From Anoxybacter fermentans (GTDB lineage Bacteria > Bacillota > Halanaerobiia > DY22613), in NCBI RefSeq assembly GCF_003991135.1, contig NZ_CP016379.1:2046001-2110000 (forward strand): a stretch of DNA of 64,000 bases, read 5' to 3'. Below are positions 12,379 to 51,791 of this stretch, piece after piece; position 1 is the stretch's first letter; each line of letters opens with the position of its first letter. Both the position numbers and the translations under genes were made by a program. Under the pieces are notes generated by a model, which had not been told where the DNA came from, did not search any database, and saw only the letters and a list, made by a program, of their open reading frames with translations.

Positions 12379-13674
12379 TTAATCTACCCGGAGTGCATCT
12401 ACAGGACATACCTGGGAAGCCTGAATCGCTGGATAAAGTCCAAAAATAAGACTTATTAAAAGAGTAATTCCACTCCCCACAACCCAGGTAAATAATGTCA
12501 AACTTAAAGGATAATTAACCAATTGACTCAACAATTTCAATCCGCCAAAGGCTATAGCCATACCTAAAAGATTTCCAAAAACCCCTAAAATGATTGCTTC
12601 AACCAGAAATAAGATAAAAATATCCTTTCGACTGGCCCCCAGAGCAGCTGAAATTCCGATATGCTTATATCTTCTTAAAACCCGGGCCATCATTAGATTT
12701 AAAATATTTATTGACGCAATTAATAAAACTGCACATGAAAAAATTACAATAAGCTTACCAATATTTATAAAAGAATTTTTTATTTTATTCTGGTAAAGAT
12801 AACGACCATGTATACCTATCCCATTGGGATATCTATATCTTACAATATTTTTTAAATTATTATAAAATTTATTTAAATCCACACCTTCGTCAGCCATAAT
12901 ATAAATACATTCTACTAACAAGTTTTCATCAGCATCAAATTTATAACTAAAATAAGGAATATATGCTATTTTATTTAATTTATCACTTGCTCCTATCCCA
13001 GTTATGTAGTCCCTTTTTTTTACATCAACATCTTTATGAACAACACCAATTACTTTAAATTTTCCAAAACGAAGCCATAATTCCTGTCCAACAGGATTTT
13101 GTTCGCCAAAATACAATTTTGCCAATTCATCACCAAGGACAACCACCTTATTCTTATTAATTACATCAAAATCTCTGAAAATATCTCCTTTCAGCAGATT
13201 TAAATCTGCAACAGCAAATATTTCTGGTGTCGCTAAACAAAATTCAATATCATATTCGCCCCGATCACCGCTTTGGGTTTTAAAAGCCTTCAAATCAGAC
13301 CTATCCTGCATTCCTCCTGAAATTTCCCTAACCATTCTGGAAATCCAAACATATTTTATTCCCTCCAGATTAGCCTTTTTAAACTCCAAATAATCATCAA
13401 AAGTTAAGTTAACTACTTCTTTCTCTGAATAAAACCTTTTAAGAGGCGTAGACTCATCACTTTTAAATTCAATCTGGGAAGGTACAATTTGAAAAGTTCT
13501 GCCATTAATTGAATTAATAATATCCGAAGCCTGTTTATTAAACCCTTCAATCAATCCCAACACATTACAGATAGCACCTACACCCAGAGCAATTCCCAGA
13601 ATAATTAAAATTGATTCCAACAATCGCTGCCGGATTTGCCTTAATACCCAAAAGATAACATCCAGAATAGACAA
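12379..13674 (-). CDS. ABC transporter permease, MacB/FtsX type (first of two)
   Basis: Partner permease of the same exporter, 431 residues. N-terminal membrane helix at about 17-38, a periplasmic-type core domain about 40-290, and three C-terminal helices with the FtsX segment RRYKHIGISAALGASRKDIF. It starts 33 bases after the TolC-like gene and ends 13 bases before the second permease. Two non-identical permeases with one ATPase imply a heterodimer. Substrate cannot be inferred. Confidence 0.92.
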   Translation of the reverse strand: MSILDVIFWVLRQIRQRLLESILIILGIALGVGAICNVLGLIEGFNKQASDIINSINGRTFQIVPSQIEFKSDESTPLKRFYSEKEVVNLTFDDYLEFKKANLEGIKYVWISRMVREISGGMQDRSDLKAFKTQSGDRGEYDIEFCLATPEIFAVADLNLLKGDIFRDFDVINKNKVVVLGDELAKLYFGEQNPVGQELWLRFGKFKVIGVVHKDVDVKKRDYITGIGASDKLNKIAYIPYFSYKFDADENLLVECIYIMADEGVDLNKFYNNLKNIVRYRYPNGIGIHGRYLYQNKIKNSFINIGKLIVIFSCAVLLIASINILNLMMARVLRRYKHIGISAALGASRKDIFILFLVEAIILGVFGNLLGMAIAFGGLKLLSQLVNYPLSLTLFTWVVGSGITLLISLIFGLYPAIQASQVCPVDALRVD

Positions 13675-42712: not shown

Positions 42713-43393
42713 CTATATCTTTAAAAGATAAGAGTTCTTTTTTAACCAATTCTCATATTTCTTATAATCAGGCATTAACATTTTTACTTTATTCCAGAAT
42801 TCTTTTGAATGATTTTTCTCCTCCAGGTGAACTAACTCATGAACAACAACATAATCTATAACTGGTAAAGGAGCCATTATCAAACGCCATGAGAAATTTA
42901 AATTTCCATTAGAACTACACGATCCCCATCTTTTTTGAGCATTTGTAATATTAACTTTATTATATTTAAAACCCCTCTTTTGAGCATACCATCTTACCCT
43001 TTCAGATATTTTTCTATGTGCTTCCTTCTTATACCACTCAATAAATAATTTTTTTGCATATGGTAAATAGTTTCTATCAAGATAAAAACCATTTTCAAAT
43101 CTAAGTGGAATATCTGCTTCATTTACTATGGTCAGCCTATAATAATCTCCCAGATAAAGAAACCCTTCTCCATTTACAAATTCCTTGGGAGAAAATTTTG
43201 GATCTCTGGATTGAATTTCTTTTTTCTTTTTTTCAATCCAATCTTTATGATTATAAACAACCTTTTCTATAGTTTTTTCATCCACATGAAAAGGAGCTCT
43301 TACTATCAATGTAGCATCATCAGTTATTTGAAGAGCAATAGTCTTTCTTTTTGTTTTGATTATTTTATCTATTTTGATTTCCACCTTCTTCAC
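42713..43393 (-). CDS. YgjP-like (DUF45) zinc metallopeptidase
   Basis: 226 residues. Zinc-peptidase motif HELVHLEEKNHSKEFW (about 185-200; HExxH then a third His), preceded by the DUF45 segment AQKRWGSCSSNGNLNFSWRL. This family, also called YgjP-like or M48-like, is often the gene after hsdR in type I restriction clusters; its role there is not established to my knowledge. The start overlaps the hsdR stop by four bases (ATGA), so it is part of the restriction operon. Confidence 0.9.
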   Translation of the reverse strand: MKKVEIKIDKIIKTKRKTIALQITDDATLIVRAPFHVDEKTIEKVVYNHKDWIEKKKKEIQSRDPKFSPKEFVNGEGFLYLGDYYRLTIVNEADIPLRFENGFYLDRNYLPYAKKLFIEWYKKEAHRKISERVRWYAQKRGFKYNKVNITNAQKRWGSCSSNGNLNFSWRLIMAPLPVIDYVVVHELVHLEEKNHSKEFWNKVKMLMPDYKKYENWLKKNSYLLKI

Positions 43394-46300
43394 CTCTTAT
43401 AAATATTATACGCAAGCTCCATTAATTTTTGGGCAATCTCATTTCTCTTATTAAATAAACACTTATTTTTCCGCGATCTTTGAAGAAGAATATGAGAAAT
43501 CAAATAGGATTTTAACCTCTTTTGTAAAGTATAATTTTCCCAGAAATCTACTGTTTGGACTTCTTTGCTTATGATCGCAATAGTATCTTTAGTTAATTCA
43601 ATTAGAAAATCAATTTCTTCTTTATCTAATTTTTCAATTGGCTTTTTACCATAAATTTCTCTTTTGAGTAGTCCAAAGAAAGGCATCTCTTTTTTTGGGT
43701 CAAAGCCAAAAGTCTCTTCAACAGTTCTACCCTTCTTGATTTCTTCTCTAATTTTCTCCAGTTCAGAGGCAAGAATATTCCAGTTTTCCCTGTACTCCTC
43801 AAGTATTCTTTTCAGTCTATCAGAAAACCTTTCATAAAATTCTGGATCCTCTTCATAGTGCTTTTCAATATGCTCAATAGTTGCATATTTCAGCTCCTCA
43901 GCTCTGGCTTTACTTGACTTTTTCTTTTTAACATTTTCTATGAAGTCATCAGAAAGCAGAGGGAGGGGAGCAATCTTTGGGTTAACACCTTTTGAAAGAA
44001 GATACTCTTCAACAATTTCTCTAATTTTCTTGCTTGCATCTTTTATGCTAAGTTTGTCATCTCTATATCTATTTCTTGCTGATTGCCTTATAAAGTTAAG
44101 AATTTTCAACTCCCGCATATATTTTAAAGCTTCGGGATCGGGAAGCAATTTATCTATTGCTCTATTAAACTGTCTAACATATGTTAGAAATTCATTTCTA
44201 ACCTCTTCATCTACAAGAAGATCTATACATTCTTCAATATTGTCCATCCAGTCTTCAATCTCATACTTCTTGAAGAAATCATTGATGAGGTTATAGATAT
44301 ATTTTAATTCATCAATACTCTTACCTCTATCCTTAACTACCTGTGTAATCTCTTCAACATCTTTTTCGTCAAATATTGCAAGCGCTTCTTTTAGATGTTT
44401 CAAAACACCTACATAATCCACAACAAAACCACAACTTTTATTCTTGTAAACCCTGTTCACCCTTGCAATTGCCTGAAGAAGATTATGCTCTTTGATAACA
44501 TTATCTAAATACATCACCTGCTCAATCGGCGCATCAAATCCTGTAATGAGCATACTCTGGACAACCAGAATACCAACATCTCCATTTATCCCACTTTCAT
44601 CTTCTTTAGCAAAAGGAAGTTTAAAGCTTTTTATATGTATTTCCTGCTTATCAGGGTCTGTAAAGGGATGATATTCTGGAGGATCGTTTTGATTTCCTGA
44701 TATTACAACAGCAACTTTTAGTTTTTCAAGTTGATCTAAGTCTATTTTATTGTTGCGATCTCTTTTTAATTCCTCTATTTTCTCTTTAAGGGCACCTTCA
44801 AGGGCTTTTTTATATCTTATAGCTGCTAGTCTTGAAACTGTAACAACCTGTGCCTTAAAACCATTGGGGAATACATGAGTTACATAGTGGTCAACCATGT
44901 CTTTCGCTTTATCTTTAATAACATTTTCATCTTCAAGATAGGCTTTCCAGGTATATCTTCCCATAATTTTTGCTTTTTGCTCGCTGTCTAGCATGTTAAA
45001 GACATCTTCAAACCGCTTATTTGCCTCTTCCTCGTCAGAAATTTCTGCCCTGTGTGTTCTCCCCTCATAGACAATCTCAACAGTAACCCCATCCTCAACA
45101 GACTGGCGAATGCTGTATTTGTCTATATAATCTCCAAAGGTCCACTCTGTTTTTTCAATAGGTGTTCCAGTGAAGGCAATTCTAACTGCATTTGGTAGCG
45201 CTTTTTTTAAGTTAGCACCAAGTAATTTATACTGGCTACGATGTGCCTCATCAATCATAATAAGGATATTTGGTGATGTGTTCAATACAGGAAACTCTCT
45301 TTTTAGCTCTCTTTCCTGAAATTTATGAATCATGCCCATAACCAGATCTGGAGTATTTGTTTTTAATAAATCCTGTAATTCTCTAATACTTCCAGCAAGA
45401 TTTACGGTATAACCCACACTTTTTGATGTATCTTTTAATTGCTTTTCTAAATCCTTTCTATCTGTAATAAAAACTATCTTAAAGTTTCTTAATTCTTGAT
45501 CATGATACATTGCCCTGACCACATACATCATCGTAAGAGATTTGCCCGACCCTTGAGTGTGCCAGACAATACCGCCTTTTTCCTGTTGTGTTTTACCCTC
45601 TTTCAATCTTTTTATTATCTTTTTTACCGCCCTGAATTGCTGATATCTTGGGACAACTTTTATTACTCCGACTTTTGGATCTTCTTTATACAATGTAAAA
45701 CTGTGAAGAATATCCAGGAGATTGTTTTTTGAAAGCATTCCTTGAATAAGAAATTCCTGACTTGTTACTACATTTTTATCTGTTTCAATATCTGATAACT
45801 TAAAAGGATAAGGATCTTTCCATTCAACAAAATACTCATATTCTGATGTTATTGTTCCATATTTTGCTACCTGATTAGATGTAGCTATCATAAAAAGGTT
45901 ATACCAGAAGAGTTTTTCGTTTCCTTCCTTTTCTCCTCTTCTATTGGAATATCTCATTAATTGGGTGATTGCTTCACCTATTGGGTCATTTATTGTTGGA
46001 GATTTACATTCCACAACAACAAGAGGTAGCCCATTAACAAACAGAACAATATCCGGGATTATGTGTTTTTCAGTTCCCGGAATGTTTACTTTAAACTGTG
46101 AGATGGCAATGAAGGAGTTATTTTCTGGATTTTGAAAATCAATAAATCTAACCGTTGGGCTTTTTTCTCCTGTTTTCCTGTTTTCTGAAACTGAGATGTT
46201 TTCAAGGAGTAAGTTATGAATTTCTTTGTTTGCCTCTAAAAGAGAATTAGCTTGTGGTGTGGTTACTCTTCTTACTACCTCATTTATCTGGTCCTCCTCA

Positions 46301-46485
46301 ATCCACGGGTTTATTCTTTTTATTGATTCTTTAAGCTCTTTTTCAAGAATTACCTCTCTAAAACTCTCCCTCAGGGATTTTGAAGGATCAAATTTATCAC
46401 CATGAATAATTTTCCAGTCAAGCGATTTAAGCTGCCTTAAAAACGACTCTTCAACATAATGCTCTTCATCAAGGAGTTTATACAT
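43390..46485 (-). CDS. hsdR: Type I restriction enzyme, R subunit
   Basis: DNA translocase and endonuclease. About 1031 residues from ATG 46485, seven bases after GAGGGTG. N-terminal nuclease domain with PDIVLFVNGLPLVVVECKSP (PD-(D/E)xK, about 145-165); helicase domain with Walker A TQGSGKSLTM (about 305), DEAH box in MIDEAHRSQY, and motif VI QAIARVNRVY; C-terminal helical HsdM-contact region. Intact, so restriction capacity would be retained if HsdM and HsdS can be made. Its start overlaps the hsdS 3' end by eight bases. Confidence 0.95.
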   Translation of the reverse strand: MYKLLDEEHYVEESFLRQLKSLDWKIIHGDKFDPSKSLRESFREVILEKELKESIKRINPWIEEDQINEVVRRVTTPQANSLLEANKEIHNLLLENISVSENRKTGEKSPTVRFIDFQNPENNSFIAISQFKVNIPGTEKHIIPDIVLFVNGLPLVVVECKSPTINDPIGEAITQLMRYSNRRGEKEGNEKLFWYNLFMIATSNQVAKYGTITSEYEYFVEWKDPYPFKLSDIETDKNVVTSQEFLIQGMLSKNNLLDILHSFTLYKEDPKVGVIKVVPRYQQFRAVKKIIKRLKEGKTQQEKGGIVWHTQGSGKSLTMMYVVRAMYHDQELRNFKIVFITDRKDLEKQLKDTSKSVGYTVNLAGSIRELQDLLKTNTPDLVMGMIHKFQERELKREFPVLNTSPNILIMIDEAHRSQYKLLGANLKKALPNAVRIAFTGTPIEKTEWTFGDYIDKYSIRQSVEDGVTVEIVYEGRTHRAEISDEEEANKRFEDVFNMLDSEQKAKIMGRYTWKAYLEDENVIKDKAKDMVDHYVTHVFPNGFKAQVVTVSRLAAIRYKKALEGALKEKIEELKRDRNNKIDLDQLEKLKVAVVISGNQNDPPEYHPFTDPDKQEIHIKSFKLPFAKEDESGINGDVGILVVQSMLITGFDAPIEQVMYLDNVIKEHNLLQAIARVNRVYKNKSCGFVVDYVGVLKHLKEALAIFDEKDVEEITQVVKDRGKSIDELKYIYNLINDFFKKYEIEDWMDNIEECIDLLVDEEVRNEFLTYVRQFNRAIDKLLPDPEALKYMRELKILNFIRQSARNRYRDDKLSIKDASKKIREIVEEYLLSKGVNPKIAPLPLLSDDFIENVKKKKSSKARAEELKYATIEHIEKHYEEDPEFYERFSDRLKRILEEYRENWNILASELEKIREEIKKGRTVEETFGFDPKKEMPFFGLLKREIYGKKPIEKLDKEEIDFLIELTKDTIAIISKEVQTVDFWENYTLQKRLKSYLISHILLQRSRKNKCLFNKRNEIAQKLMELAYNIYKR

Positions 46486-47021
46486 CTTCCACACCCTCTT
46501 TGATTAAATGATTAACTCTTATTTTACCAGTCAAAAGGTCTTCCATTAAACTCTGCTTTAACCTTTTAAGTTTTTCTTTATATTTTTGTTCTTTTTCTAT
46601 GGTCTTGTCTATTTGTGTTAGAATTTGGGCTATGCATTGTTGTTCTGGGAGTGGGGGAAGTAGAAATTTATAATTTTTTAAAATTTCCCAGCTTGTTCTT
46701 GGCATTTTAGTTCCAAAAACTTTGGATTCCGCTAATTTTAAAAAATTTTTTGATTGAATAATTAAATATAGGAATTTTTGATAAATTTTATTATCTTTTG
46801 CTTTAATCACAAACAATTCTGTTGAGCAAACACCCTCAAAAGTTGCAAACCAAAACTTTCTTAAGTTTGGTCTAAGTTTGGCAAATAAGATATCTTCCTT
46901 TTTAAATATATTTGAAATCCCTTTTATTTCCTCAGAGTTTAAAAATCCATTAATTTTTCCAATTTCCTTTTCAATATTCTCTAAACCAATGTAAATATCA
47001 CTAATAGAAGGAAATTTTTTT
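46478..47021 (-). pseudogene. hsdS: Type I restriction S subunit, second half (out of frame)
   Basis: Continues the upstream hsdS frame after a shift at the A7 run (T7 at 47015-47021 on the plus strand). The frame reads FPSISDIYIGLENIEKEIGK onward as the second target-recognition domain, then the conserved LPPLPEQQCIAQILTQIDKT helix and LMEDLLTGKIRVN. The first ATG inside it (46816) would give only 112 residues. One added A in the run would restore a full two-domain HsdS of about 435 residues. A -1 ribosomal slip on A-AAA-AAT would do the same. Confidence 0.9.
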
Positions 47022-47787
47022 CATTTCTCAATTCTGCTACACTTCCCAACTCCACAACTTCCCACTCTTTTGGTATTTTGCCAAGTGGCGAGTCTTTGAA
47101 TTTGTGCGTTTTTTCGCTTCTGATTTGCCCTTTTTCGTCAATCCCTTTTGTGAGTAAATCCTGCATCAAGCCCTGTTTTATGCGTTTGTATTTCTCTATG
47201 ATTTTGTCGGTTTTTTCTATTGCATTATCAACGGTTTCTAAAATTTCGGCAATTTTACGTTGCTCGGGGAGTGGTGGGATTGATAAACATATATTCGAAA
47301 AAGGCGTAATATTTATCGTTGTTCTGGTGGTACCTATTGCACTATCCATAATTGCTTTTTGTCCCCAATGTGAAACAATAAAATTTAATATGTATTTTTC
47401 TGATGCTTTTGATTTGTCTACGCTTACTTTAAGACAACTAGAGGCAATAATTCCTTCGGTGTATTCATTAGAAAATATACCTGATTTACCAATTGTTGCC
47501 CCAGTTTTTGCAATTATTATGTCCCCCGGTAAAACCTTGCTTCTCCTTAATGCACTTGCTTTTTTCTTCGTAATAAAAACTAAATTTTCATGAATAAATT
47601 TTCCTTCAAAGCTCAAATTTACTACTCTAATTAAGGGTATTTCCCCATCTTCTACATATTCATCGGAGTGCAATTGTGTCCCAAAAGGCCCATCAACTAT
47701 AGCAAACTTTTTATTTTCAGCTATTTCTCCTAACTTTACCCTTTTCCATCCATCTGGTAACTTCTCCATTTTAATATCTGCCATCAT
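46981..47787 (-). CDS. hsdS: Type I restriction S subunit, first half (ends at frameshift)
   Basis: 268 residues. First target-recognition domain (about 12-175; DGWKRVKLGEIAENK, GPFGTQLHSDEY, IPLIRVVNLSF) and the first conserved coiled-coil (LPPLPEQRKIAEILETVDNA, about 175-215), then the start of the second domain (KIPKEWEVVELGSVAEL) before the frame leaves at the A7 tract and stops 14 residues later. A half HsdS with one recognition domain can sometimes dimerise to make a palindromic specificity, so this may be a working alternative product. Overlaps the hsdM 3' frame by 17 bases. Confidence 0.9.
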   Translation of the reverse strand: MMADIKMEKLPDGWKRVKLGEIAENKKFAIVDGPFGTQLHSDEYVEDGEIPLIRVVNLSFEGKFIHENLVFITKKKASALRRSKVLPGDIIIAKTGATIGKSGIFSNEYTEGIIASSCLKVSVDKSKASEKYILNFIVSHWGQKAIMDSAIGTTRTTINITPFSNICLSIPPLPEQRKIAEILETVDNAIEKTDKIIEKYKRIKQGLMQDLLTKGIDEKGQIRSEKTHKFKDSPLGKIPKEWEVVELGSVAELRNEKNFLLLVIFTLV

Positions 47788-48994
47788 AATATCCCAACCT
47801 TGTTAAAAATTTATTTAGTTTTTTTACTTCTTCCTCTCTTTCTTGTTCTATTTGGTTTAAAGGTATCTTGTATTTATCCCAAAGCTTTTCAATTACTTTA
47901 ATCACTTTTTTCTTCTCGGCATTAACATATTTTTCAACTTCTTTTGCAATTAAATCATAAAACTTCTCAAGAATTAACTCTTTTGCCTCTTCCTCTGTAA
48001 AGCTTTCTCTTTTAATGTGTATCTTCCCCTTCTTTATTAACTCCTTAGGCTTGCCTTTTTCCGGACTTTTCCAAACCCCTTCTAATTCCTCAGCCTTTGT
48101 TTTTAATTCTTTTTTTAGTTTTTTTAGTTTCTTATCTTTCTCGTCAATCTTTTTAATCAGGTTCTCCCAAATACTTGCTTCTTTTTGTACCGCTTCGCTC
48201 TGGTTGGATCTTAAATCTTTAACTAATTCTTTTAAATAGTCTTTTACCTTTTTTATAGTTTTATTTCCTTGTTCTTCTTCGTCCCATTCCTCGATTTCCT
48301 CAAAAATTTCATTTATTTCTCCTTCAATTTCTGCAATTTTTCCTTCTAATTCCTCAATCTCTTTTACTTCTTTACTAAAAAATTTGTTTTTTATTCTTTC
48401 ATCTTCTATCAAATTAGCACTCCAGCCAACAGATACAATTGTTTTAAAATCATATCTCAAATCCTCCCACCAGTTTACAAAGATGCCGGCAATTTTAAAC
48501 TCATCCAGCACACCAACAGGTAAAAGTTTCTCCTTTATCCTTTTAAGTGCTTTATTTCTGAACTCCCAGAGATGATTGTTTCTATAAAAATCTTCAATCT
48601 CCAGCTTTATCTCTTCCCACCATTCTTTTAAACTTTCGTCAAGTTTTTTACAAGTAGTTTTTACTTCCTGAGAATTTTCAATTATTTCTTTTATTTTTTC
48701 CTTCTTTCTTATCTCTTCCTTAAACTCTAAATAACTCTCGTCTTTTTTCTTAAAAAAGATTTCATGACTTATGCCAAATTTCTTAAACTGATCTCTGTAA
48801 AGTTCCACTTCTCTTTTGGGAACGCTTTCAACTAAATGGGCATGAACATCTTCAATTTCTGGTTCAGGTGTGTTATCAACATACCTTCTTATATTCAAAT
48901 TAAAATCATTTTCTTCAATCTCCTTTATATCAACAAGCCTTGAGTATTTTGGAATTTCCTTTTTTTCATCAAAAACATTTACAATTTTTTTCAA
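47771..48994 (-). pseudogene. hsdM: Type I restriction M subunit, C-terminal part (second frame)
   Basis: 407-residue frame that begins [20 protein letters not shown] and NLNIRRYVDNTPEPE, which is the normal continuation of HsdM after LRPEDIEK. It therefore belongs to the 48969-50270 frame, separated by a shift at an A7 run. Residues 60-407 form the long charged, coiled-coil-rich extension seen in larger (about 800-residue) HsdM proteins. Its own start would be ATG 48994 (MKKIVNV) with no clear ribosome binding site. Read as a separate gene it would be misnamed. Confidence 0.87.
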
Positions 48995-50270
48995 TATCTT
49001 CAGGCCTTAAATAATTTTGATTTCTCCCTTCCCCATACTCTCTATCTGCATTTATAAATAAAATTTTGTTTTTTAGATGCTCTGGTTTGTTTTTGTTTAT
49101 AACTACCACACATGCGGGAATACCTGTATTGTAAAATAACTTGGGAGGAAGCCCAATAATTGCTTCAATAATTCCATCTTTAACTATCCCTTCTCTTATA
49201 ATCTTTTCCTGCCCACCTCTAAACAAAACACCATGTGGCATAATTGTTGCCATAACCCCATCATCTTTTAAACTGGCAATCATATGTTGGAGAAACATTA
49301 AATCAGCTTTTTTGCCTGTTTCCGGAGTAAATCCATATTTAAATCTTTCAGGAAATTGCATATTTGCTTTAGTATAATTTTGTGAAAAGGGAGGATTGGC
49401 TATTACTCTATCAAACCTTTTTATATACCCATTCTCAACAAACATAGGATTTGTCAGAGTATCCTCGTTTTCTATATGAGCATCAGGAATATTATGAAGA
49501 ATCATATTCATCTTACATATGGCCCATGTGGTTCCATTGTTGTCTTGACCATAAAGTGCAAGCTTCTCTGGATTCTGTCCTTGTTCTTCTACATATTGTC
49601 TTGATTGGATGAGCATACCCCCAGAACCAACAGTAGGGTCATATACTGTTATACCTTCTTGTGGTTTTATCAATCTGACCAATAACCTTACAACCTGAGA
49701 AGGTGTATAGAATTCACCACCTTTTTTACCTGACGAATCTGCAAACTGCTTTATCAAATATTCATATGCCGCTCCTAATAAATCAGGAAACTCAAAATCC
49801 TCATTGGTCAATCTGTATTTGTTAAAATGATGTATTAAATCAATCAATTGTTGATCTTTGAGCCTGGTTTTTCCTTTGGTGGCATTAAAATCTATATGTC
49901 TCAATACCCCTTCTAACTCAGGATTTGTCTCTTCTAATGCCGCAAGAGCTTTATTCAGCTGATTACCCACATCTTCTTTTAAGTTAAGGATATTTTCCCA
50001 TCTTGCCCTTTTAGGAACAAAAAAACTATCTCCATACAAATTTGGATCCTCTATAAGTTCATTTAGTTCTTTTTCAGAAAAACCTTGGGCTTTGAATTGT
50101 TCTAACAACTCTTGTCTTTTAACTTCAAATGTGTCAGAGACACGCTTTAGAAACAACATACCAAATATGAATTCCTTATATTCAGAGGCATCCATTTTGC
50201 CTCTTAAAATATCAGCTGCCTTAAATAAGTGTGTTTCTAGTTGCCTCAGTGTTATTTTTTCATTGCTCAT
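48969..50270 (-). CDS. hsdM: Type I restriction M subunit, N-terminal and catalytic part (first frame)
   Basis: 433 residues: N-terminal helical HsdM domain (about 1-150) and the adenine methyltransferase core with AdoMet motif [11 protein letters not shown] (about 211-221) and catalytic NPPF (about 292-295). The frame ends [13 protein letters not shown] and stop, whereas the family continues [10 protein letters not shown]; at G-AAAAAAA-TTG (48985-48991) loss of one A restores the continuation in the downstream frame. Catalytic residues are all present, but the part that contacts HsdS/HsdR is in the other frame. Confidence 0.93.
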
Positions 50271-50334
50271 TTATCACACCCCTACCTACTTATCATATTT
50301 TTTAACTATTTTCCTGGACAGACTTGAAGACTTC

Positions 50335-50404
50335 ACTCAACGGAATGCCGGGATTCACGAAGTGTCTCAAAGAGGCAGCCGAAGCCGTATGTCCGCTGTT
50401 ATGT
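50335..50404. other. attC-like imperfect palindrome after the Mrr-like gene
   Basis: A GC-rich 70-bp island (around half GC in a roughly one-third-GC region) immediately after the Mrr-like stop codon. On the plus strand it opens with ACTCAAC (fits RYYYAAC) and closes with GTTATGT (close to GTTRRRY, one mismatch). The adjacent segments GGAATGCCG and CGTATGTCCG pair with one or two unpaired bases, as in integron attC sites. No integrase gene is in the window. Could instead be a terminator-like hairpin. Confidence 0.35.
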
Positions 50405-50414
50405 GCCGTTCGTA

Positions 50415-51425
50415 TCAATTATGGATTCCATACTTTACTATCAAGCTTGCAAGATCTTTTCCTAATAATATACCTACATTCTTTCCAGTATCATTTCTTA
50501 ATTTTTCGAGTTCCTCTTCAAATTCTTCTGTCATTTTTAGCGCCGTTGATATTATCAATCCACAAGTATAATCAGGATTTGAGTCAAAAGCTCTTCTTAT
50601 ATCTTCTATGGCTTTTGTATATCCCATTTTACCTCCATAAGATTTCACCTGAACTGCGCATAATCCTTCCTTTTGCAGCCCTTCAATTTCAAATCCACTC
50701 TCATATACAAATTCAAGATCTGCTCCATTTACATCAGGTCCCTTTCTGACTTCTTTAACATTTGGCAATTTCCCTAAAACTCCAATAAGTAAATCTTCTA
50801 AATTTTTGCCAGGAAATATATGATGCAGTTTCTTAGATATTTCGTCCAAGTAACTATTCATTTCTTCTTCAAATCTTTCCTTAACATCTTTTCCGTGTCC
50901 ACCTTCTTTAATCTCCTGTAATAATTCCTCAAATTCTTGTTTTGCGTAAACTCTCCACCAGGCACCTCGAAGACCTAACCTGCGTCTTAAATATGGATGA
51001 ACAATATTAGAGTTTCTATCAAAATATGCTACAAATTCACACGGCAAGAAGTGTCTGAAATCCCCTTCTTCTCCATCGTCCCAGATCTCGCTAAAGATAT
51101 ATTCTCCTGTAATTTTTACTATGGTGCACTTGCCATATTCTGGCATGTTTATATAAACGAAATAGTCTCCTGGTTTAACATAGGACAACATGAAATGAGC
51201 ATGTTTCCAGGAGTCTTTTTCTTTGTCACTAAGAGAATTCCATCCATTTTTATCAATCTTCGCCTTAATTTTCCTTAAATCCGCTTCAACAAAGTATGAC
51301 CAACCAAATCTAGCTTTTCCTTTTTTAAGTTCCTCATAAATACGTGGTATCCAATACTCAGAGCCTTCTTCCCAAGGCTGAATCGTTTTTACAGCAAAAA
51401 TAGTATATTCTTCTACCTTATTCAT
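50415..51425 (-). CDS. Mrr-like restriction endonuclease with N-terminal sensor-like domain
   Basis: 336 residues from ATG 51425, behind GGAGGGAG; the longer frame to 51479 encodes that site. C-terminal domain (about 195-336) has a PD-(D/E)xK-type core: GPDVNGADLEFVY, then AVQVKSYGGKMGYTKAIEDI (Q-x-K form as in Mrr), and a final GLIIST strand. The N-terminal 190 residues (YTIFAVKTIQPWEEGSEYW..., YFVYINMPEYGKCTIVKITG) look like a PUA/EVE-type or small beta-barrel sensor region but I cannot name it. Upstream of hsdM in the same direction; may be a type IV partner or independent nuclease. Confidence 0.75.
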   Translation of the reverse strand: MNKVEEYTIFAVKTIQPWEEGSEYWIPRIYEELKKGKARFGWSYFVEADLRKIKAKIDKNGWNSLSDKEKDSWKHAHFMLSYVKPGDYFVYINMPEYGKCTIVKITGEYIFSEIWDDGEEGDFRHFLPCEFVAYFDRNSNIVHPYLRRRLGLRGAWWRVYAKQEFEELLQEIKEGGHGKDVKERFEEEMNSYLDEISKKLHHIFPGKNLEDLLIGVLGKLPNVKEVRKGPDVNGADLEFVYESGFEIEGLQKEGLCAVQVKSYGGKMGYTKAIEDIRRAFDSNPDYTCGLIISTALKMTEEFEEELEKLRNDTGKNVGILLGKDLASLIVKYGIHN

Positions 51426-51791
51426 TTTGTTTCTCCCTCCTTCTAAGTTATCTTTACGAATGACACATAACTCTTTCATATCTGTAATATTATATTATTC
51501 CATAATAAATAACCTCCCTCTATAAATATAAATCACTTTTTTCTAACAAAATTCAATTTATATATTTTTATGTTACCATTAACAATATATCTTCCATTAT
51601 CATTCATTCTAGATAATTAACTAATATCCTTTCAAATTACAATTAATTTTTATAAGGCCATAATTCTAATTTAAACACAGTTTCCCAATAATCAAATTTC
51701 AAAAATGTGTAATAATATATCTAGCCACTATAAATATTTCTCCGGATAATTTGTAGATTTTTTTGTTTCATTTGAATGACCTCCTGATACT
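51426..51791. other. Intergenic region upstream of the restriction island
   Basis: Very AT-rich. It should contain the promoter of the Mrr-like/hsd genes; a TATAAT is visible on the minus strand near 51490 but no convincing -35. A 16-codon frame (51721-51771) lies at its right side and is listed separately. No repeat copy is found here. Confidence 0.4.
51721..51771 (-). CDS. Possible 16-residue peptide or gene start remnant
   Basis: ATG 51771 to TAG, encoding MKQKNLQIIRRNIYSG, with an excellent GGAGG site eight bases upstream, directly after the ABC-2 permease gene. It may be a true short peptide exported by, or related to, the neighbouring transporter, or the remaining start of a lost gene. 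Only the ribosome binding site supports it. Confidence 0.25.
   Translation of the reverse strand: MKQKNLQIIRRNIYSG

Follow-up and report, generated by a model that had tools for sequence, protein, structure and literature searches.

The question raised by this locus is whether a type I restriction-modification operon of Anoxybacter fermentans, in which both the methyltransferase and the specificity gene lose their frame at a run of seven adenines (A7), is switched, bypassed, misread or simply dead. The window analysed here is the whole stretch of 64,000 nucleotides that contains the operon, and it belongs to a genome available as one contig of 3.56 Mb at 100% completeness.

An ordinary operon with two frame breaks

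On the minus strand lies a type I restriction-modification operon of ordinary make-up, present in one copy, with the gene order hsdM-hsdS-hsdR-ygjP. This organism has no other type I locus, as no second Methylase_S gene was found in the genome; two further N6_Mtase matches are much weaker and lie elsewhere. The hsdR gene (43390..46494, minus) is uninterrupted and encodes 1034 aa with an HSDR_N nuclease, an SWI2/SNF2 motor and a T1RH-like C-terminus (Pfam, PADLOC), so that the nuclease and SF2 motor domains by which HsdR is recognised are both in place. The genes are tightly packed, with hsdS and hsdR overlapping by a few bases and the hsdR stop overlapped by 4 nt by the gene of a YgjP-like metallopeptidase (42713..43393, minus), likewise uninterrupted. 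YgjP-like homologues are present in many related hsd loci, and a functional link between this gene and this type I family is suggested. Directly upstream of hsdM, a gene at 50415-51479 on the minus strand resembles Mrr_cat_2 only weakly, in its C-terminal part (E 0.014), and is perhaps an extra restriction endonuclease beside the type I operon. The ~110 bp between hsdM and this Mrr-like gene (50320-50430) have a different look and occur once in the genome; 26 bases of them have a 96% match in L006, the carrier of a related hsd locus.

Two subunits do not have one uninterrupted frame each, namely HsdM and HsdS, whose genes are both broken at A7 tracts. The open reading frame of hsdS starts at 47787 and stops at 46981, its sense strand being the minus strand, and its frame is lost at the A7 tract 47015..47021 (T7 on the plus strand), which lies at residues about 256-258 and is one A short of the frame that encodes the second target recognition domain (TRD2). 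The 5′ part (46981..47787, minus; 268 aa) matches Pfam Methylase_S over 1-163 of 168 positions (E 8.8e-22) and PADLOC Specificity_I; it runs from TRD1 through the central conserved region ~20 residues into the TRD2 region and ends in an out-of-frame tail of ~10 residues. At the break it reads ...AGA AAT GAA AAA AAT TTC CTT..., i.e., R N E K N F L L L V I F T L V stop, the last in-frame residues being ...VAELRNEKNF. The 3′ part (46478..47020, minus) encodes TRD2 and the C-terminal conserved region (Methylase_S 54-168 of 168, E 3.2e-16). Its frame, read from 47020 to 46478, translates KKFPSISDIYIGLENIEKEIGK...LIKEGVEDV, and near the break no start codon preceded by a ribosome-binding site was found. 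HsdS therefore has its two Methylase_S domains, spread over two frames. The homologues of TRD2 are 35-45% identical, and the fused HsdS is collinear across the junction with the intact HsdS of relatives, both those that share the conserved regions and those that share TRD2. The first-pass annotation had placed a frameshift at this tract, and the two open reading frames, the Pfam halves and the alignment to relatives bear out its description and its coordinates; also correct was its statement that one extra A, or a −1 slip, brings an intact TRD2 into one frame with TRD1 and the central conserved region.

About 2 kb upstream of the hsdS break, the frame of hsdM is interrupted at the A7 tract 48985..48991 (minus), which in a codon-level comparison has one A more than in ~30 relatives, where the run is A6 or interrupted; all of these align in frame and read the codons as I-E-K-I in a single frame, with A6 at most. 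The 5′ part (48969..50270, minus; 433 aa) carries HsdM_N and the N6_Mtase catalytic domain with the motifs DPTVGSGG and NPPF both there, and matches PADLOC PDLC03031 over 1-451 of 834 positions, while the 3′ part (47771..49006, minus) contributes the end of N6_Mtase and the C-terminal extension (PDLC03031 447-834 of 834). The HsdM_N and N6_Mtase domains expected of HsdM are thus encoded, over two frames. The two A7 breaks had been described as opposite in sign, and so they are: against every aligned relative, hsdS has one A too few and hsdM one A too many.

Commonplace tracts and the idea of a switch

Opposite breaks in one operon had led to the proposal that the cell toggles between no enzyme, half specificity and full specificity, i.e., that slipped-strand mispairing reversibly changes the length of both tracts. 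Tract-length phase variation is indeed known in type I genes. Simple sequence repeats (SSRs) are present in 2% of hsdM genes and in 7.9% of hsdS genes (PMC7394358). The demonstrated cases are one hsdM, in non-typeable Haemophilus influenzae, and one hsdS, that of the NgoAV system of Neisseria gonorrhoeae (PMC7394358, PMC6789123). The half-HsdS encoded here has a suitable architecture, and the operon has no other decay. Against a switch stands the ordinariness of the tracts themselves: counted over both strands, the window has 87 A7 runs, where dinucleotide shuffles predict 124, and the hsdM-hsdS-hsdR genes have nine A7/T7 runs on the sense strand and none longer, seven of which (e.g., 48110-48116 and 45202-45208) are in frame and no shorter than the two broken ones. 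Moreover, A7 is not kept at the hsdM codons of relatives, so the unusually long or conserved repeat tract by which phase variation is recognised is missing at this locus. No inverted repeats, notable tandem repeats or other SSRs were found in hsdM-hsdS, and the arrangement of inverting systems, a second hsdS with inverted repeats, is likewise absent, hsdS being a single locus in the genome. Loss of mismatch repair was considered as a cause of slippage and rejected, as mutS and mutL are both uninterrupted and of full length (910 and 678 aa), which also speaks against a switch. Finally, a half-HsdS state would be silent as long as hsdM is broken. A reversible switch is therefore improbable, and the toggle found no support; either a plain recent loss or a miscalled consensus would account for what is seen more economically. 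The stricter version of the toggle, in which the short, opposite-phase A7 tracts of hsdM and hsdS switch independently between none, symmetric half-HsdS and full enzyme while the mismatch repair genes are intact, must be regarded as very unlikely.

In NgoAV, a one-base homopolymer change likewise cuts HsdS off behind TRD1 and the central region, and the truncated protein is active with another specificity (PMC6789123, PMC7394358); there, a variable poly-G tract, strain variation and methylomes were shown, whereas here there is a common A7 tract, known from one assembly, together with a broken hsdM. The H. influenzae case resembles the present one in being an on/off frame break in a type I hsdM (PMC7394358), but it is driven by changes in a simple sequence repeat, in place of which there is here a single, non-conserved A7 run.

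Possible half-HsdS enzymes and possible bypass by recoding

It had further been suggested that half an HsdS could dimerise and recognise a different, symmetric site. The precedent is EcoR124I NT, an N-terminal piece of HsdS (residues 1-215 in EcoR124I) that includes TRD1 and the central conserved region and forms dimers on a symmetric site, which it recognises (PMC2877798). The truncated HsdS of the present operon has this half-HsdS architecture, and to that extent the suggestion stands. Such an enzyme needs HsdM, and hsdM is broken as well, so the clone that was sequenced is not in the half-specificity state. The EcoR124I fragment was engineered and worked with full HsdM, whereas here HsdM is truncated and any activity of the half-HsdS is hypothetical. 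Since hsdM lies upstream and is itself broken, a half-HsdS enzyme is impossible until hsdM is back in frame, i.e., hsdM sets on or off first. One might still imagine a lasting half-specificity or split enzyme, in which a dimer of the truncated HsdS on a symmetric site is combined with an HsdM assembled from two open frames: half-S subunits of type I enzymes do dimerise and methylate symmetric sites (PMC2877798), and the 3′ frame of hsdM, open from 49006, has a first possible start at TTG 48994. This start is preceded by a weak AGG only, HsdM would have to function in two pieces, with the cut falling late in the catalytic domain (272/311 of N6_Mtase), and the TRD2 half of HsdS is free of disablement, which is unexpected were half-S the lasting state. 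Such an enzyme is scarcely credible.

Some full-length protein could also be made if the breaks were bypassed, either by ribosomal frameshifting (−1 on A_AAA_AAT in hsdS, +1 in hsdM) or by slippage of RNA polymerase. The heptamer A_AAA_AAT lies in frame in hsdS and fits the slippery pattern X_XXZ_ZZN, and codons of the form AAN are prone to shifting (PMC4066793); AAT is, however, a heterogeneous ZZN codon and belongs to the class that shifts more weakly in E. coli, where strong shifting uses stimulators (PMC4066793). No stable structure was found in the RNA downstream of the hsdS and hsdM tracts (z 0.14 and 0.41 vs shuffles) and no strong Shine-Dalgarno sequence before the hsdS heptamer, and the hsdM site is not conserved in relatives, so that neither a downstream stimulatory structure nor a conserved site marks these tracts as places of programmed frameshifting. 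The slippage of E. coli RNA polymerase is undetectable on fewer than 7 T or fewer than 8 A (PMC6260861), a length that A7 does not reach, and recoding would require two changes of opposite sign in one operon. Selection against homopolymer runs is evident mostly from nine upwards (PMC1088944). Low-level leakage through the breaks may occur in a species other than E. coli.

This organism may be capable of recoding at poly-A runs, judging from a LarC-type nickel-insertion gene elsewhere in the genome that is split at an A9 run (L081:12395-13617, minus; the run at 12886) and whose two frames cover 2-237 and 239-375 of the 375 positions of the Pfam profile. In Lactobacillus plantarum, larC is expressed by frameshifting, and the gene of A. 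fermentans is possibly expressed in this way or by polymerase slippage. Even with this point in its favour, a bypass of both hsd breaks is quite unlikely.

Probable recent silencing or a miscalled run

There remain the readings in which the operon is either truly broken or was miscalled. How often homopolymers break genes in this assembly was estimated by a codon-based frame-switch scan of forty 20-kb stretches and the window, together 864 kb of the genome; a stricter scan, based on a 5th-order model, picked up neither of the hsd breaks. The codon-based scan gave 312 A/T tracts of at least seven with coding evidence in one frame on both sides, and about 99% of the tested coding tracts were in frame, including 67 of length 8-9, all these counts being estimates, since the filters leave some false pairs from ordinary overlapping genes. 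By this measure the hsdS tract stands out for breaking a frame and not for its length. After removal of ordinary gene junctions, a handful of homopolymer breaks was left outside the operon. Those seen, besides the LarC-type gene, were at a T7 in a DUF975-like gene (L099:14361-15057), an A8 in a repeat-protein gene (L098:18319), an A6 in a radical-SAM gene (L080:17529-18696) and an A7 in a transposase gene (L082). The background of breakage, with transposon genes and larC set aside, is about 2 in 312 tracts of at least seven. On this background, the chance of finding two broken among about ten A7 tracts of one operon is about 0.002, a figure that is post hoc, as the operon was picked because it was broken. 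Two breaks in one operon are thus a mild post hoc excess, not an astonishing one across a genome with several hundred operons, and their improbability tilts the balance slightly towards a real, locus-specific cause over random miscalls.

The age of the lesions was approached through the positions that are near-invariant (at least 95%) among relatives in HsdM, HsdS, HsdR and YgjP. The operon departs from these at 8 of 414, mostly conservatively, and when unbroken relatives of similar distance were each left out in turn, they departed at 5/410 (L005), 5/412 (L011), 7/412 (L006), 7/412 (L009) and 10/382 (L008). Beyond the two indels, no decay was found in hsdM, hsdS, hsdR or ygjP. The lesions are therefore either very recent or residual base-calling errors, and that nothing else at all has decayed would also agree with a locus in working order, be it through miscalling or through switching.

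A residual sequencing or consensus error, with one or both A7 lengths miscalled and the operon intact and active, is accordingly the alternative to be taken most seriously. It would account for the fully constrained look of the rest of the operon, and the other single-base homopolymer breaks at the T7, A8 and A6 runs named above show the kind of event involved, about a dozen of which are expected genome-wide. On the other hand, the ~99% of coding A/T tracts in frame, the long ones included, indicates that homopolymers were mostly called well, and two errors would have to be opposite in sign and clustered within 2 kb. This explanation is possible, and second in rank.

The likeliest reading, to which a probability of roughly one half may be given, is that an otherwise ordinary operon was very recently silenced by strand slippage at two commonplace A7 runs; a consensus error comes next, and a reversible switch is possible but unsupported. 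Both lesions are single-A homopolymer changes, of opposite sign, which is the product expected of replication slippage. Such slippage would have put hsdM and hsdS out of frame, leaving the operon as sequenced with no full HsdM and only half an HsdS, so that in the clone that was sequenced the system most probably has no activity. The lesions would then be real in the cell and cause a loss of function, presumably not maintained as a switch, and the second may have followed once selection was relaxed or reversed by the first, e.g., in a culture free of phage pressure.

Should the lesions prove real and fixed, the operon would join the type I operons known to have been silenced recently and would serve mainly as a caution for annotation, since its hsdS 5′ part, taken alone, resembles a natural half-HsdS. 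If the tract lengths were to vary between clones, the locus would be a phasevarion-like switch working on unusually short A tracts and on two subunits at once, and scans restricted to long repeats would overlook switches of that kind. Frameshifted and degraded type I operons generally have, like this one, single-base or larger breaks in hsd genes; they differ from it in that here two lesions of opposite sign are found in one otherwise well-conserved operon. Among the related type I operons elsewhere, changes of frame were also observed in the hsdM of L021 (1963-3281) and the hsdR of L025 (5877-9012).
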